IMG/VR virus record: IMGVR_UViG_3300046167_000372
Span: 1 to 37,699 of that record
From: a virus
Strand: one strand, 5' to 3'
DNA length: 37,699 nt
Numbering within the stretch: the first letter of the stretch is position 1; every line of letters begins with the position of its first letter. A program made the translations under genes and the position numbers. Positions 23,506-32,779 of the stretch are shown here, piece by piece. The notes beneath the pieces were generated by a model, which searched no databases, was not told the DNA's origin, and was given only the letters and a program-made list of their open reading frames with translations.

Positions 23506-24219
23506 TTACAATCTACGCATAGCAGCGGCCTGTCTTTGTTGTGCTGCTTCAATCTTATTTTTTTGCGCTAAGTAACTCATCTCTGGAAGCACTACGTTCA
23601 TCTTTAGCATATAGATCTCATCGTAAATCCTTATATCTTCTTTGGCTAGCATCCTAACTATCGAGTACCAATACCATTGCTGATTAAACACCTCGTCTGC
23701 ACCAGGTGTGCTAAATTCGTCATCGTTGGTTTCATCTGGATCAGGTGTTGCGTAAAACACTCCAGAGAATTGTTTAAACAAAATCAACTCGCGATTCGCT
23801 AGAAATTTATTTACGACATTATAAAGATCCTGGACCGGTGTGTTTAGGATGGCTTCGCGATGCTGCGCCTCTTTGGACTCGTCCGTGTTGTCGTACTCTA
23901 CCTCATCTAAAGGTCTAAGTATGTAAGTCATCAATTCAAGGTCCATGTCGCTCGCATTATTGAACTTAAACTTACCTGTTAGGATCTGCTCCACCATGAT
24001 AAACTGACCCAGCACTAGATCAAACACATTGTCATACACCTTAAACTTAGACTTAACCTCTTCCGTTATCGTATGGCTTGAGACAAGCGGGTAAGTCTCT
24101 TTAATGCTGCGAAGCATTCTAATGCGCTCTAACAGTTCTAAATTCTCAAGATAAGCATTCATACTCTCCGGACTAGAAAGTTTGTCAGAGAGGCTTATAT
24201 GTGTCTTAAAATCGATCAT
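23506..24219 (-). CDS. Hypothetical head/neck protein, 237 aa
   Basis: I start at ATG 24219, which overlaps the terminase stop (ATGA); an earlier frame extension lies within terminase. The protein is acidic and mostly helical, with an aromatic cluster near residue 190 (NQQWYWYSIVRML) and a Gln/Ala-rich basic C-terminus. It follows the terminase, where many phages encode the portal, but it lacks portal features. It may be a connector or a packaging accessory. Unrecognised family. Confidence 0.5.
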   Translation of the reverse strand: MIDFKTHISLSDKLSSPESMNAYLENLELLERIRMLRSIKETYPLVSSHTITEEVKSKFKVYDNVFDLVLGQFIMVEQILTGKFKFNNASDMDLELMTYILRPLDEVEYDNTDESKEAQHREAILNTPVQDLYNVVNKFLANRELILFKQFSGVFYATPDPDETNDDEFSTPGADEVFNQQWYWYSIVRMLAKEDIRIYDEIYMLKMNVVLPEMSYLAQKNKIEAAQQRQAAAMRRL

Positions 24220-25466
24220 AGGAACATTGTTACACCGCCGTCCTGCTCTTCCTTTGCACAATATGCTGCGATCGCTAGACTCATAACCATATCATCGTGC
24301 TTGCCATCTGTATTGCTAAACTGTAAGTTGCCGGTGATTGCGTTTCGCTTTGACTTAAAGTCATACAACTCTTTTATTAAGTCATCGTTCTTGGGGATCT
24401 TGATAACCTTATCTTCAAAAAGTTTGATTAGGTTGCGTATCATTTCTGGCTTGGTCTGTGCGGTAGTTAAAAAGGGAATTAATTTATACATCCGATCGTC
24501 ATCTGTGATCTCGTCAAATAGCAAGTCGTTATTATTTACCTCAAAGTATGCGGCAGTTAACTTCTGATCATGCTTTAGATAAAACGCTTTAATGCGATCC
24601 TTGAACTCATCGCTATTCATTCCCTCTTCCTTGTAGTTGAATCTGTCTATATCAATCACCGTGTAATCCTCGGTCATTGCAGTAAGCACCGTGTAATCCT
24701 GTGCGACACCAATATCCATTCCAATATACACTCTTTCGTATTTTTGTACAATATTCTGTACAACAGCATCCTCTACATTGCTAAATAAGGCGTTAGCACT
24801 AACAGGTCTACATAAAAACTCCTGATCGAACTGCGCTTTAGTCATACTCTTCTTGATACCGAGTACAGTCTTGGCTACATTGTCATCGTTTAGATCCAGG
24901 TAAGTGCGCTTAATCGATTTGATCTGTTCCCAATTTTCTTCCATCTGCCCATTCTTGTACCAATCGTAAAACCAATTTGGTCCGTTAAATGTCGAGGCCG
25001 CACATACATTTCCGTTGGTGCGAGTAACCATTGGTAATAGCACTTCGTTGATAAAATCCAACTTCATGTATGCCGCTTCATCCAAGTAGATATAGTCGAG
25101 AGTGGCACCACGAAGATTATCCCCACTATCAGCAGACCTAAACTTAATAAACGAACCATTGTAAAAATAAAGTTCATTCGCCTTTCTGTCATATCGTTTT
25201 ACAATTTGGTTCCATAGTTCTTGGTGGTTACTGAACATTGCTTCAATGTCCTTCATCACTTTATTCGCTTGATCCTGTATAGGCGATACCCAGAACATTC
25301 GGTGTTTAGGGTTGTTCAATGCTCTCATTACACAGTCGTTCTGCATAAAGAAAGTCTTACCTGTCTGTCGGCCTGCTACTAAACAACTAATAAAAGGCTT
25401 GTCCTCGTGTACTAATCGATGAAAATCCTTTTGTGGTTGTGTAGGCTTGTATAATTTTATTTGCAT
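24216..25466 (-). CDS. Terminase large subunit
   Basis: 416 aa DNA-packaging motor. The ATPase domain has Walker A GRQTGKT (32-38), Walker B YIYLDEA (125-131) and a coupling motif near AASTFNG (157-162). The RNase H-like nuclease domain carries the acidic residues D251 (YIGMDIGVAQD), E309 (AYFEVNN) and D392 (GKHDDMVMSLA). It cuts concatemers and pumps DNA into the prohead through the portal. Whether it uses headful or site-specific cutting cannot be decided here. It overlaps genes on both sides. Confidence 0.95.
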   Translation of the reverse strand: MQIKLYKPTQPQKDFHRLVHEDKPFISCLVAGRQTGKTFFMQNDCVMRALNNPKHRMFWVSPIQDQANKVMKDIEAMFSNHQELWNQIVKRYDRKANELYFYNGSFIKFRSADSGDNLRGATLDYIYLDEAAYMKLDFINEVLLPMVTRTNGNVCAASTFNGPNWFYDWYKNGQMEENWEQIKSIKRTYLDLNDDNVAKTVLGIKKSMTKAQFDQEFLCRPVSANALFSNVEDAVVQNIVQKYERVYIGMDIGVAQDYTVLTAMTEDYTVIDIDRFNYKEEGMNSDEFKDRIKAFYLKHDQKLTAAYFEVNNNDLLFDEITDDDRMYKLIPFLTTAQTKPEMIRNLIKLFEDKVIKIPKNDDLIKELYDFKSKRNAITGNLQFSNTDGKHDDMVMSLAIAAYCAKEEQDGGVTMFL

Positions 25467-27184: not shown

Positions 27185-27214
27185 TTGTTTATTCAAAAAG
27201 TCGCCGTTTCTTTG
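27185..27214 (+). promoter_or_regulatory. Candidate promoter of the large RNA
   Basis: TTG (27185-27187), 19 nt, then TTTCTTTG (27207-27214) matches the Bacteroidota arrangement TTG-N19-TAnnTTTG with one mismatch. Transcription would start a few bases downstream, just before the GC-rich structured segment begins. Confidence 0.5.
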
Positions 27215-27738
27215 ACATGTCGAAAGGGAGCAACGATAGCCCACGACAAGAGGCCCAAGGAAGGGCCGCCTCAAGCATCTAAAATACCGGGCCGACCAAA
27301 GGCAGTATATCTTACCCCGGTACAGCATCGAACTGGAACGTGAAAAACTGAGGAACTGCCAAGGCAGTAGGAGGCACAAAGACACCGCCACAATCTAAAG
27401 AGTAACCAACTAACTGATGAATCGAAGGGGTGCTATTTGGACAGCATTTGCCCGCCAAAATTTGTGTAACCTTGGGAACACATACCACGCTAATGGAGTG
27501 AACGGCTGAGATGCTCAGAGGATAGCGGCAAATTCTAAGCCTTTCGGGGCTTAATCGATACAACCGGATGCAATGCATTCGGCTTTGATTTGCGCCACTT
27601 GGGGCGCTTACTAAATACCAATTTTCAAGGCCTAAGCAGGTCGCGAAATACCGAAAAAACCTGCGCCACTTGGGGCGTTTTTAAATACCTCCTATTTCGG
27701 CTTTTTGCGATGGGGTGCGATTCCCCCCTTGAAACCTA
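27215..27738 (+). ncRNA. Candidate large structured non-coding RNA (about 520 nt)
   Basis: This GC-richer stretch in an otherwise AT-rich genome has no supported gene but many perfect local helices: TACCGGG/CCCGGTA (27285-27291 with 27316-27322), a GGCCC/GGGCC hairpin (27252-27256 with 27263-27267), ACTGC/GCAGT with a CAAG loop (27355-27368), CTGAG/CTCAG (27506-27518), a UUCG-capped hairpin (27537-27552) and an 8-bp hairpin (27564-27582). CGAAAGG (27220-27226) can also pair at long range with CCTTTCG (27540-27546), in competition with the UUCG hairpin. Two near-identical GCGCC hairpins follow. The 3' part overlaps the leader of the RadC-like gene. It could be a large ornate RNA like those known from phages (GOLLD, ROOL), but I recognise no class signature. 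Confidence 0.6.
27591..27689 (+). repeat. Two tandem GCGCC hairpin repeats
   Basis: TGCGCCACTTGGGGCG followed by a short spacer and TAAATACC occurs at 27591-27619 and again at 27662-27689. Each folds into a GCGCC/GGCGC-type stem with an ACTTGG loop. The identical loops could pair with CCAAGG-type sequences elsewhere in the RNA (27255-27260, 27359-27364). Confidence 0.75.
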
Positions 27739-27765
27739 ACTTTTAACAATTAAAACCTAGAAATT

Positions 27766-28224
27766 ATGAAAATGTCTAAAGCGTACAAAGGAAACATCAG
27801 AGTACAATACAACGAAGTAAAAGAGCCAAAAGTAGTGCAAATTCGCTCAAGCCGTGATGCTTGGAAGGAGTTCCGCTCTTACTATGGCGCTGATATTCAC
27901 CACAAAGAAGCATTTTTGATCATGTTTTTGAACCAAGCAAATCACATCATTTGCATCGATACGGACACCGTAGGAACTGTGAACCAAACGACTGTGGAAA
28001 TTGCGAGTATTTTACGCAAAGCCCTAGCGATTGGTTGCAAATCAATGATTGTAGCCCACAACCACCCAAGCGGTAACAAAACACCGAGTGAGGCTGACCG
28101 CAGAATGACCAAGAAACTGAAACAAGCGTGTGACCTGCTTGAAATTAGCGTACTTGACCATGTTATTTGCACGGCTGATGAGTACTACTCATTCGCTGAC
28201 AATGGCGAACGCTCACTATCTTAA
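27766..28224 (+). CDS. RadC-like JAB/MPN domain protein
   Basis: 152 aa. The JAMM metal-binding set is complete: E48 (HHKEAF), H98 and H100 in AHNHPSG, S108 and D111 in TPSEADR. RadC-type domains, despite the name, have no proven repair role; in mobile elements and phages they often sit among anti-defence genes. The length is that of the isolated catalytic domain, without the helix-hairpin-helix region of chromosomal RadC. It is the first gene after the large structured RNA and starts 6 nt after the AAAACCTAG motif that recurs before other genes in this operon. Confidence 0.88.
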   Translation: MKMSKAYKGNIRVQYNEVKEPKVVQIRSSRDAWKEFRSYYGADIHHKEAFLIMFLNQANHIICIDTDTVGTVNQTTVEIASILRKALAIGCKSMIVAHNHPSGNKTPSEADRRMTKKLKQACDLLEISVLDHVICTADEYYSFADNGERSLS

Positions 28225-28225
28225 A

Positions 28226-28290
28226 AGTCGACCGAGCGACTATAAAAAGGCCTTAGGCTCGGTGCGTGGCCCTCAATCGGGGGCCGGTGG
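28226..28290 (+). ncRNA. Pseudoknot leader element, copy 1
   Basis: Stem 1: AGTCG (28226-28230) pairs with CGACT (28237-28241). Its 6-nt loop ACCGAG (28231-28236) is exactly complementary to CTCGGT (28258-28263), giving an H-type pseudoknot. GCGTGG (28264-28269) follows directly. A second hairpin GGCCC/GGGCC (28268-28272 with 28281-28285) and GGTGGT end the element. It precedes the 45-aa gene at 28314. Confidence 0.85.
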
Positions 28291-28313
28291 TAATAACTAA
28301 AAACAAAAAACCA

Positions 28314-28451
28314 ATGTATTCAATTTTTGTATGTGAGGCATATTTTACGCCTCAAGTTGAACAAATCGAAGCACTCAATGAATCAGAGGCTATCGAAATT
28401 TTCAAAGAGTTGACCGGCGAATCGGTCGTAAATTGTAAACAAATCGCATAA
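28314..28451 (+). CDS. Small protein, 45 aa
   Basis: I choose ATG 28314, after the RNA element and an A-rich leader; the in-frame GTG at 28266 lies inside the structured element. The protein is a compact alpha-beta unit (MYSIFVCEAYFTP, then EALNESEAIEIFKELTG), acidic, with one late Cys. The texture recalls small ferredoxin-like folds. Function unknown; it belongs to the string of small genes after RadC. Confidence 0.65.
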   Translation: MYSIFVCEAYFTPQVEQIEALNESEAIEIFKELTGESVVNCKQIA

Positions 28452-28462
28452 ATCAAAAAACT

Positions 28463-28564
28463 ATGAAAACTATCATTGCAAAAATCACTATCCAAGACGT
28501 ACTAATTATCGGAATGCTGGCCGTTATCATGGCCACTTCAGTAGCCGCACTCATTAACGCATAA
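28463..28564 (+). CDS. Tiny single-span membrane protein, 33 aa
   Basis: M-K-T-I-I-A-K followed by a long hydrophobic segment (about 10-31) and no other domain. The ATG at 28463 follows an A-rich leader (AAAAAACT), the normal start type here, and the gene fits between two others. Such miniproteins can insert in the inner membrane. No known family. Confidence 0.5.
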   Translation: MKTIIAKITIQDVLIIGMLAVIMATSVAALINA

Positions 28565-28583
28565 ACCTAAAAAACCTAGAAAA

Positions 28584-28724
28584 ATGGAAATTACTATCTA
28601 CGACCAAATCGAACTACCAAAAACGGAACGCAAAGCCCTTTGGGCCGCCGTTCGAGACATGAAGGAATCCGGGCTATGGATTACTAACCACAAGCGCCTG
28701 ATTCATGAAATGATTAACCTGTAG
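28584..28724 (+). CDS. Small protein, 46 aa
   Basis: A mixed-charge helical protein (TERKALWAAVRDMKESGLW, about 15-32). The leader AACCTAGAAAA directly before the ATG repeats the sequence seen before other genes of this region. The stop codon TAG is itself part of the first helix of the next RNA element. Confidence 0.6.
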   Translation: MEITIYDQIELPKTERKALWAAVRDMKESGLWITNHKRLIHEMINL

Positions 28725-28784
28725 TCCTCAGGGGGACTGAAAACCGCATTAAGCCCTGAGCGTGGCCCATCTTGGGCCGGTTGT
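28723..28784 (+). ncRNA. Pseudoknot leader element, copy 2
   Basis: Stem 1: AGTCC (28723-28727, starting in the stop codon) with GGACT (28734-28738). Loop TCAGGG (28728-28733) pairs perfectly with CCCTGA (28754-28759). GCGTGG follows at 28760-28765; the second hairpin is GGCCC/GGGCC (28764-28768 with 28774-28778), then GGTTGT. The linker is 15 nt. It precedes the gene at 28806. Confidence 0.9.
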
Positions 28785-28805
28785 ATAATTAAAAACCTAG
28801 AAAAA

Positions 28806-29108
28806 ATGAACTTTAACAACTTCAAAAACTTTGAAATCCCTGGATGGACTGCAAACGAGGACATGACTGAAACCGCTGCCAAAATCGCTAACGAACTTGA
28901 AGCCCTGGGTGTTCATGTGTGTGGATCGGCCGCTGATTTCGGATACGCTGAAGGCGAGGACTCGGTATGGATCTCAGCAGAAAGTACTCCAGAGTTGTTC
29001 GAGTATTGGGAAATGCGAGTTGATGCGAAATGCGAAAAAGTCGCTGACAAATACGGATACTACTTTGAGTGGAACGATCCGGGAACGATCATGGTCTACC
29101 CTGTATAG
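28806..29108 (+). CDS. Small acidic protein, 100 aa
   Basis: A strongly acidic protein with an N-terminal helix (MTETAAKIANELEALGV), a beta region (GSAADFGYAEGEDSVWISA) and a final WNDPGTIMVYP. Negative charge and lack of known motifs would suit a DNA-mimic inhibitor of host defences, but this is a guess from composition. It is translated from the leader containing RNA element copy 2. Confidence 0.65.
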   Translation: MNFNNFKNFEIPGWTANEDMTETAAKIANELEALGVHVCGSAADFGYAEGEDSVWISAESTPELFEYWEMRVDAKCEKVADKYGYYFEWNDPGTIMVYPV

Positions 29109-29111
29109 GCC

Positions 29112-29176
29112 GGTGGTTTGGGCCACCTAAAATAGAACTTAAGTCCAAAGCGTGGGGGACAAAATCCCCCGGTGTT
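29112..29176 (+). ncRNA. Pseudoknot leader element, copy 3
   Basis: Stem 1: GGTGG (29112-29116) with CCACC (29123-29127). Loop TTTGGG (29117-29122) pairs with TCCAAA (29144-29149), with one G-U pair. GCGTGG at 29150-29155 is identical to the other copies. The second hairpin has changed to GGGGG/CCCCC (29154-29158 with 29166-29170), then GGTGTT. Every helix differs in sequence from copies 1 and 2 yet still pairs. Confidence 0.88.
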
Positions 29177-29197
29177 ATGAATTAAAACCTAGAAAAA

Positions 29198-29548
29198 ATG
29201 GAAATGACAAACATCAAAACGGCATCGCAAATCAGAATCCTATGTAAGGTAATGGATTACGCCGAGCGCCAAGGCTACGACATGAACGATTCGTACACGC
29301 AAGCCGGCTACAACAGCCACAGCGGTTACATCTGGATAGCAAATGAAGATTGGGGAGGATTCTGCTTCGGAATTGCGGACTATGCGTATTCCAGAGGCGA
29401 GGAGGTTCAATGTATATTGACCGAACCATTCGAGTGCGAGGAGTTCTTCGGGAAAAACCCTGAAGATTGCATCGAGCAATACAAAGAGTGGGCAAAGGAA
29501 CGCCTGGAGGATGGAGACATTTGCGAAAGCGATATTTTAGAATTTTAA
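29198..29548 (+). CDS. Small acidic protein, 116 aa
   Basis: Acidic, with an N-terminal helix (TASQIRILCKVMDYAERQGY), an aromatic, Gly-rich middle (NSHSGYIWIANEDWGGFCFG) and a Cys/Glu-rich C-terminal part (EPFECEEFFGKNPEDC). It resembles none of the families I know. It follows RNA element copy 3 and the AAAACCTAG leader. Possible anti-defence or regulatory role, by association only. Confidence 0.65.
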   Translation: MEMTNIKTASQIRILCKVMDYAERQGYDMNDSYTQAGYNSHSGYIWIANEDWGGFCFGIADYAYSRGEEVQCILTEPFECEEFFGKNPEDCIEQYKEWAKERLEDGDICESDILEF

Positions 29549-29972: not shown

Positions 29973-29981
29973 TATAAAAAC

Positions 29982-30002
29982 GAGGGGGTGATAATCCCCC
30001 TC
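29982..30002 (+). promoter_or_regulatory. GC-rich hairpin, GAGGGGG/CCCCCTC
   Basis: A 7-bp stem with a TGATAAT loop lies between two small genes. It lacks a T-run, so it is more likely an mRNA structure than a terminator. Very similar hairpins occur at 30268-30292 and in the leader of the RadC-like gene. Confidence 0.6.
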
Positions 30003-30197: not shown

Positions 30198-30200
30198 ACG

Positions 30201-30234
30201 GTTCATGCCGGTTCGATTCCGGCTACTTCCCAAA
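30201..30234 (+). pseudogene. tRNA 3'-end fragment (T arm and acceptor strand)
   Basis: 30207-30223 is a perfect tRNA T arm: GCCGG, loop TTCGATT (all T-loop positions as in real tRNAs) and CCGGC. The next bases TACTTCC give a 7-nt acceptor strand. The matching 5' strand (GGAAGTA) and anticodon arm are missing upstream; that sequence belongs to the membrane-protein gene. A rho-independent terminator follows at once, as after genuine tRNA genes. It may be an attachment-site remnant, a captured tRNA end, or a tRNA-like signal. Confidence 0.7.
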
Positions 30235-30258
30235 CCCTCCATAGATGAGGGCTTTTTT
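30235..30258 (+). terminator. Intrinsic terminator after the tRNA fragment
   Basis: CCCTC (30235-30239) pairs with GAGGG (30247-30251), loop CATAGAT, followed by C and six T residues. It would end the transcript that began at the large RNA promoter. Confidence 0.8.
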
Positions 30259-30267
30259 CTAGGTTCT

Positions 30268-30297
30268 GCGAGGGGGTGAGATTCCCCCTTGCTTTTT
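30268..30297 (+). terminator. Second hairpin with T-run
   Basis: A 9-bp stem (30268-30276 with 30284-30292) with loop TGAGATT, followed by five T residues. It could back up the previous terminator; its last bases overlap a promoter-like site. Confidence 0.65.
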
Positions 30298-31779: not shown

Positions 31780-32475
31780 ATGAGAAAAATAACAGAGGAA
31801 GATATTAGAGGGTGGTTCCCTAGGGACCGGAGGTTCTTGCATTTCTGTGCAAAGTATTATGGGTATTCATTCCATAACGATGAGGTGGTAGAGTACGCAA
31901 ACGAGTACGCAATTAGGTACATCACCAAGATGTTCAATGAAGGTAAAGAGTTTGACAATGATCAACACATGACCGGGATCGTGATGAGTTCCTTTAGGTT
32001 TGCGATACTAAATGGATACACCGCATACGAGAAGTCTAAGAGGTTAGGATCTAGACCGATGTCTGACTACGATGGTGAAGGTGATTACAATTCTGTTCTC
32101 ATAAGCCTTGCTGATGGATCTAAGGAGTACGATAATATCAGGGAGGTACTTGATATGATCATGGAGAAAGAATTAACAGAGCGTGAAAGAGAGATGATCA
32201 AGAGACACTACTTCCAAGGTGATAGCCTGAAGGATATAGTCCGACATCTTGAAGTTAGTTACACGGATGGCCGCAGGATCATGCGAAATGCAATGAAGAA
32301 AATCAAAACAGTATTAAACCATGAGGAACCAAGAGAGATTGAACAGAAAGATAAACATCCAGAGCGTAAACAGGTTAGCAGATCACTACCAAAACCTGTA
32401 CGGAACAAACCCATTGACTCGAACAAGGCAAAGACAGAGTCTTATTCCAAGGCAATGTCTTTCCTTTATTCTTAA
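31780..32475 (+). CDS. ECF-like RNA polymerase sigma factor
   Basis: 231 aa. A region 2-like helical part spans about 32-85 (NEYAIRYITKMFNEG, then SSFRFAILNGYTAYEKS). Region 4 lies at about 132-178: LTEREREMIKRHYFQGDSL, then a helix-turn-helix VRHLEVSYTDGRRIMRNAM. It would redirect host RNA polymerase to phage promoters. The last 51 residues, beyond region 4, are basic and polar, and their DNA also encodes the next protein in another frame. The gene is preceded by AT-rich sequence with the palindrome ATACTAGTAT. Confidence 0.8.
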   Translation: MRKITEEDIRGWFPRDRRFLHFCAKYYGYSFHNDEVVEYANEYAIRYITKMFNEGKEFDNDQHMTGIVMSSFRFAILNGYTAYEKSKRLGSRPMSDYDGEGDYNSVLISLADGSKEYDNIREVLDMIMEKELTEREREMIKRHYFQGDSLKDIVRHLEVSYTDGRRIMRNAMKKIKTVLNHEEPREIEQKDKHPERKQVSRSLPKPVRNKPIDSNKAKTESYSKAMSFLYS

Positions 32476-32779
32476 ACAGAAGTTTAATGTAGGGTACTCA
32501 GAGTTGGGTAGGTTATTGGGTAACAATCATGCAACCATGATCTGGTCAGAGAAAAAAGTTATAGAGTCTCTTCAAATACACGACAAGCAGTATGTAGACA
32601 CCGTTAACCGGTGGGCTGTGGTATTCCAGGAGGTAATGCCGAACGATGCTGCTCAAATGTGGTCTATTCAAGATCGAGTGATGGCGATCATGGAAGAAAC
32701 CCTGTTGAACAACGAGTCGAAAAGAGAGATACTCCAGGAGTTGTTGAAAATATATAGCGAAGATGTTGTAAATGTTTAA
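32321..32779 (+). CDS. DnaA domain IV-like DNA-binding protein, 152 aa
   Basis: The motif QRQSLIPRQCLSFILKQ (37-53) and ELGRLLGNNHATMIWSEKKV (61-80) resembles the DNA-binding domain IV of DnaA, which reads DnaA boxes; the NHAT segment replaces the DHTT signature. The rest is helical. It starts inside the sigma gene, overlapping by 155 nt in another frame, and the conserved part begins within that overlap, so the overlap is real rather than a mis-called start. It may bind the phage origin or recruit host factors. Confidence 0.7.
   Translation: MRNQERLNRKINIQSVNRLADHYQNLYGTNPLTRTRQRQSLIPRQCLSFILKQKFNVGYSELGRLLGNNHATMIWSEKKVIESLQIHDKQYVDTVNRWAVVFQEVMPNDAAQMWSIQDRVMAIMEETLLNNESKREILQELLKIYSEDVVNV

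Follow-up and report, generated by a model that had tools for sequence, protein, structure and literature searches.

We found that a 37,699-nt stretch of viral DNA (hereafter the window; IMG/VR virus record IMGVR_UViG_3300046167_000372, 37.7 kb) carries one pseudoknotted RNA in triplicate on its plus strand, that all three copies are Pistol self-cleaving ribozymes (Rfam RF02679), and that they probably act as punctuation, splitting one early phage transcript into four mRNAs. We favor this reading because each ribozyme begins next to or within the stop codon of the gene upstream and leaves, after its predicted cut, a leader of 25-26 nt that lacks a Shine-Dalgarno (SD) sequence. The low score of copy 2, the lowest of the three, and the lack of any Pistol in close relatives count against it. 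Since the ribozyme class is already known, the three elements are new members of it and not a new class.

The copies lie at 28226-28292, 28723-28785, and 29112-29177, all within 950 nt, and each matches the Rfam covariance model over its full length (1-68 of 68) with 63.7, 42.1, and 57.1 bits, respectively, against a gathering cut-off of 34.5 bits (E-values over the window of 1.7e-9, 1.5e-4, and 5.5e-8). An initial annotation, made from the sequence alone, had reported three such elements in the intergenic spacers of small plus-strand genes; they are real and located as claimed, and the full elements reach 1-2 nt further 3'. The annotation recognized no known class, which the Rfam comparison that it had itself proposed proved wrong, thereby ruling out an unknown class of RNA. 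Among the functions that it had offered, an RNA-processing element is supported, while a riboswitch, a protein-binding autoregulatory site, and a translational coupler are not.

P1, described earlier as a 5-bp stem with a 6-nt loop, is fully paired in every copy (5/5 bp; 28226-28230/28237-28241, 28723-28727/28734-28738, and 29112-29116/29123-29127). The same is true of the pseudoknot, where the P1 loop pairs with a complementary strand at the P2-P3 junction (6/6 bp each; ACCGAG/CTCGGT at 28231-28236/28258-28263, TCAGGG/CCCTGA at 28728-28733/28754-28759, and TTTGGG/TCCAAA at 29117-29122/29144-29149). The downstream hairpin, given as 5 bp in the annotation, exists and corresponds to P3, with 7, 6, and 6 bp (28268-28274/28279-28285, 28764-28769/28773-28778, and 29154-29159/29165-29170). 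P2 had been overlooked (3/3 bp in every copy; GCC/GGT at 28250-28252/28289-28291 in copy 1, GCA/TGT in copy 2, and AAC/GTT in copy 3), and its 3' strand is the "nnT" part of the GGTnnT motif of the annotation. P2 consists of three pairs here; the outer pair of the Rfam model (24-68) is G-A or C-A. GCGTGG is indeed common to all three copies (GCGT at 28264-28267, 28760-28763, and 29150-29153). Most paired bases of P1, the pseudoknot, and P3 vary among the copies while pairing remains complete in each, and the annotation was right to infer a conserved RNA fold maintained by compensatory changes. A strict descriptor (P1, pseudoknot, GCGT, and P3) found exactly these three sites in the window, with none on its minus strand, compared to 3 matches in 200 mononucleotide-shuffled windows together. 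No further Rfam family reached its gathering threshold in the window.

The catalytic positions examined are also intact. In the Rfam alignment, each copy has purine 32, G33, G40, C41, G42, and the scissile G53-U54 (catalytic and core positions and env25 numbering from PMC6154101), and a two-nucleotide GU junction of constant length separates P3 from P2 in each. Pistol ribozymes are cut at this junction, which yields a 2',3'-cyclic phosphate and a 5'-OH, at a rate of ~10 per minute when Mg2+ and pH are close to physiological (PMC4604425, Harris et al. 2015). By this rule, cleavage is predicted between G28287 and U28288 in copy 1, between 28780 and 28781 in copy 2, and between 29172 and 29173 in copy 3.

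Packaging and virion genes, including TerL (24216-25466), are on the minus strand of the window. On the right side of the plus strand lie a RadC/JAB gene, a series of very small genes, and the genes for a PD-(D/E)XK protein and for one that matches sigma-70 region 4 (31780-32475). Copy 1 follows the RadC-like JAB-domain gene (152 aa, 27766-28224; Pfam PF04002, E-value of 6.8e-37). Three tiny ORFs of 45 aa (28314-28451), 33 aa (28463-28564, hydrophobic, read from the sequence), and 46 aa (28584-28724) lie between cleavage sites 1 and 2, and copy 2 begins within the stop codon of the third, sharing its first 2 nt with it. The sole ORF between sites 2 and 3 encodes 100 aa (28806-29108; no Pfam or PHROG match), and copy 3 is followed by a 116-aa ORF (29198-29548). 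The distance from the upstream stop codon to the ribozyme is thus +1, -2, and +3 nt, and that from the predicted cut to the next ATG is 26, 25, and 25 nt. All three predicted leaders (28288-28313, 28781-28805, and 29173-29197) are A-rich and without an SD sequence, as in Bacteroidota. Translation there relies for its initiation on A-rich sequence that is free of structure from about -20 (PMC6847099). Judged only by leader type and gene resemblance, the host may belong to this phylum. Two terminator-like hairpins with T runs (30235-30251 and 30268-30292, plus strand, identified by consensus match only) likely mark the end of the transcription unit, and the earlier description of the downstream genes as early is plausible.

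We propose that RNA polymerase would transcribe radC and the following small genes as one RNA, in which each emerging ribozyme would fold (P1, pseudoknot, P2, and P3) and cut at G-U, which would probably take seconds to minutes. The upstream piece would terminate in a stable folded ribozyme bearing the cyclic phosphate, while the downstream piece would begin with the 5'-OH and a bare A-rich leader, which, once released from the G+C-rich P3 hairpin, would correspond to the region where an SD-less (Bacteroidota-type) mRNA initiates translation. If the genes are co-transcribed, the fragments would be the radC piece, a piece of ~493 nt with three ORFs, one of ~392 nt with one ORF, and one of ~1.1 kb that holds three. 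Overall, cleavage would yield four distinct mRNAs whose stability and translation are decoupled. Whether cleavage would raise, lower, or only decouple expression cannot be told from the sequence.

Pistols also occur in many unrelated phages. Searches with sequence patterns and blastn identified them in Tenacibaculum phage Gundel_1, Bacillus phage Troll, Psychrobacillus phage Perkons, Microcystis phage MaeS, Cellulosimicrobium phage DS1, Gordonia phage GMA2, and one crAss-like phage, as well as in 77 of the 79 IMG/VR records that a single pattern had selected. More than one Pistol was present in 17 of these 77 records, including one whose second copy is below the cut-off and one whose copies are 164 kb apart. 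Adjacent copies within arrays lie on the same strand without exception (28/28 pairs), and 13 of the 28 pairs are spaced 330-600 nt. Tandem arrays in IMG/VR records include ones with five copies (G499), four (G474, G487, and G524), three (G485, G530, and G055/L088), or two (G518). In G055/L088, an unrelated element with SD-type leaders and spacings of ~500 and 410 nt, an insertion in the linker brings the third copy under the cut-off. A pattern match in a genome contig, L108, was rejected since that genome has no Rfam match. Chromosomal Pistols were found in none of 395 Bacteroidota genomes, a result that says little given the strict filters and the few candidates scored.

To describe placement, we used the 111 distinct Pistols among the matches listed, which had been selected by sequence patterns, and compared them with random positions in the same loci. 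Pistols start within 12 nt of the stop codon of a same-strand ORF with 40 codons or more in 64% of cases versus 7% at random. An ATG ORF starts no more than 110 nt after the cut in 79% versus 43%, and 20-30 nt after it in 31% versus 5%; since the random positions include coding positions, part of this excess says only that Pistols are intergenic, and ORF calling was crude. The median distance from stop codon to ribozyme is +3 nt, with many stop codons inside P1. Leaders without an SD sequence have a median length of 26 nt (quartiles 24-49) and those with one a median of 40 nt (35-54). About 5 of the 111 entries have an implausible cleavage dinucleotide (AA/C or CA/C) and are probably mis-oriented, which adds noise against the trend. 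It is quite possible, though we would stop short of calling it probable, that Pistol arrays are a widespread phage device that would cut early polycistronic transcripts into mRNAs, each with a minimal leader of fixed length tuned to host initiation (~25 nt without and ~40 nt with an SD sequence), perhaps gated by the ribosome at the abutting stop codon.

The Pistol array is an accessory and patchy feature, since none of 50 records of TerL relatives carries a Pistol, with 25 of their loci crossing the array site. These relatives came from a TerL search of IMG/VR that returned 192, the best 80 of them at 74-93% identity; the window showed no DNA similarity to known phages, and using RadC as the probe in IMG/VR gave no confirmed relatives. 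L014 and L017, both Pistol-free, encode homologues of the 116-aa protein (~48-49% identical) with no ribozyme ahead of the gene. Since close relatives lack any Pistol, the processing would be dispensable. The closest relative of each copy in the window is a Pistol in another genome, which rules out a recent tandem duplication there, and in the other arrays the nearest neighbor is in the same genome for 15 of 44 copies versus 0.8 expected. The three copies of the window have mostly orthogonal pseudoknots, the exception being loop 3, which also pairs with strand 2 (-7.3 vs. -7.6 kcal/mol). We considered selection for orthogonality and ruled it out, since over all arrays copies from one genome cross-pair no less often (8/80) than copies from different genomes (6%).

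This patchiness would also be expected if the copies were passive, that is, hitch-hiking or selfish elements that travel with accessory gene cassettes and serve no function in the phage, and the RadC-like genes found near Pistols in Gundel_1 and L161 fit such a history. However, the three diverged copies retain all catalytic nucleotides and helices though their paired sequences differ, they are not fresh duplicates given that their nearest relatives are elsewhere, and their spacing to starts and stops is constrained, so we consider passive spread very unlikely. A riboswitch or protein-binding autoregulatory leader, for which only the leader position speaks, is scarcely credible, since the fold is that of a known ribozyme with its full catalytic sequence; moreover, the window has no match to a riboswitch family, and no terminator follows P3.

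Two further alternatives accept cleavage and differ in its consequence. The ribozymes could mainly lower or limit expression, in that each gene would be severed from the 5' region where the transcript is protected, and the unstructured 5'-OH fragments would decay fast, giving a short early burst. The cleavage position and the predicted 5'-OH product agree with this, and the same placement fits equally, given that the sign of the effect is not told by sequence. On the other hand, each of the three downstream genes keeps a complete ribosome-binding leader of constant length, which points to their translation once cleavage has occurred, and 5'-OH ends are poor substrates for decay of the 5'-monophosphate-dependent RNase E type; we regard this alternative as unlikely. 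Cleavage might instead be gated by translation, where a ribosome terminating at the abutting stop codon hides the 5' strand of P1 and the ribozyme can fold only where translation of the upstream gene is absent or has ceased. The 5' edge of the ribozyme at the stop codon, both here (-2 to +3 nt) and in the 111 Pistols, is what such gating would require, but a compact phage genome would put any intergenic element there, and we judge it to be distinctly improbable.

The window Pistols resemble their class, of which Weinberg et al. 2015 is reportedly the founding paper, in P1, P2, P3, the loop pseudoknot, the core nucleotides, the GU junction, and the link to phage genes, and they differ in standing as three tandem copies in one small-gene operon. 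A close parallel is Gundel_1 (MT732474, 2564-2642; predicted 5' end after cleavage at 2638), a phage of a Bacteroidota host in which RadC/JAB and small genes lie upstream of a Pistol that starts 4 nt after a stop codon and leaves a 24-nt A-rich leader to the next ATG; unlike the window, it has a single copy and an otherwise unrelated genome. The IMG/VR arrays share the common strand, the one to few small genes between copies, and the cut just before the ribosome-binding site, but they involve different genes, and some, such as L088, are of the SD type and have leaders of about 40 nt. Gut phages likewise use small ribozymes for RNA processing, the Theta (HDV-like) ribozymes, but these have another fold and trim tRNA 3' ends (PMC10879173). 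In the part of the literature covered by our search, we found no description of tandem Pistol arrays between phage genes and no biological or cellular role given for Pistol ribozymes. The recurring array, rather than the ribozyme itself, is therefore the interesting part, and its repetition hints at Pistol function; if arrays are a widespread device, this would give the class a biological role. The geometry of stop codon and 25-26-nt leader, seen in three copies here and in many unrelated phages, makes such a role directly testable, and since Gundel_1 has an isolate host and the same geometry, this could be done in a cultured system.

Two of the other phages depart from this arrangement. In Gordonia phage GMA2 (L112, 3001-3057), the Pistol lies directly 3' of a tRNA-Trp within the phage tRNA cluster, which suggests a role in tRNA 3'-end release. 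In Bacillus phage Troll (L110, 3001-3068) and near-identical IMG/VR records, the cut is ~90 nt before the next start codon and the Pistol is followed by a promoter-like TTGACTT, a downstream geometry unlike that of other Pistols.

Several other features of the window were observed. A long non-coding leader without an Rfam match precedes radC (27195-27765) and could be read as a promoter or a structured early leader RNA. The initial ~35 nt of this leader (CGTTTCTTTGACaTGTCgAAaGGGagCAACG) are also present at the corresponding position in L014 (reverse strand, ~7145) and L017 (reverse strand, ~8120), and over the following ~450 nt these two are alike while the window differs. Intergenic G+C hairpins with 7-nt loops (TGCGATT, TGATAAT, and TGAGATT) occur at 27713-27730, 29980-30002, and 30268-30292, and similar hairpins (GGGAGCAATACCC, CGGAGCAATACCG, and CGGAGCGATACCG) stand ahead of early genes in L014, L017, and Gundel_1 (L109, ~3310); they are possibly a second kind of intergenic mark, either terminators or processing sites. 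The segment at 30198-30235 resembles the 3' half of a tRNA gene (CCGGTTCGATTCCGG and CTACTTCCCA), although ARAGORN detected no full tRNA there, and may be the remnant of an attachment site or a tRNA-like element; a tmRNA match at 30207-30279 (12.9 bits vs. a cut-off of 84) was dismissed as chance. Lastly, the ORF with the sigma-region-4 match (231 aa) and a 152-aa ORF at 32321-32779 overlap by 155 nt (32321-32475) in different frames, and L014 keeps the same overlap order.
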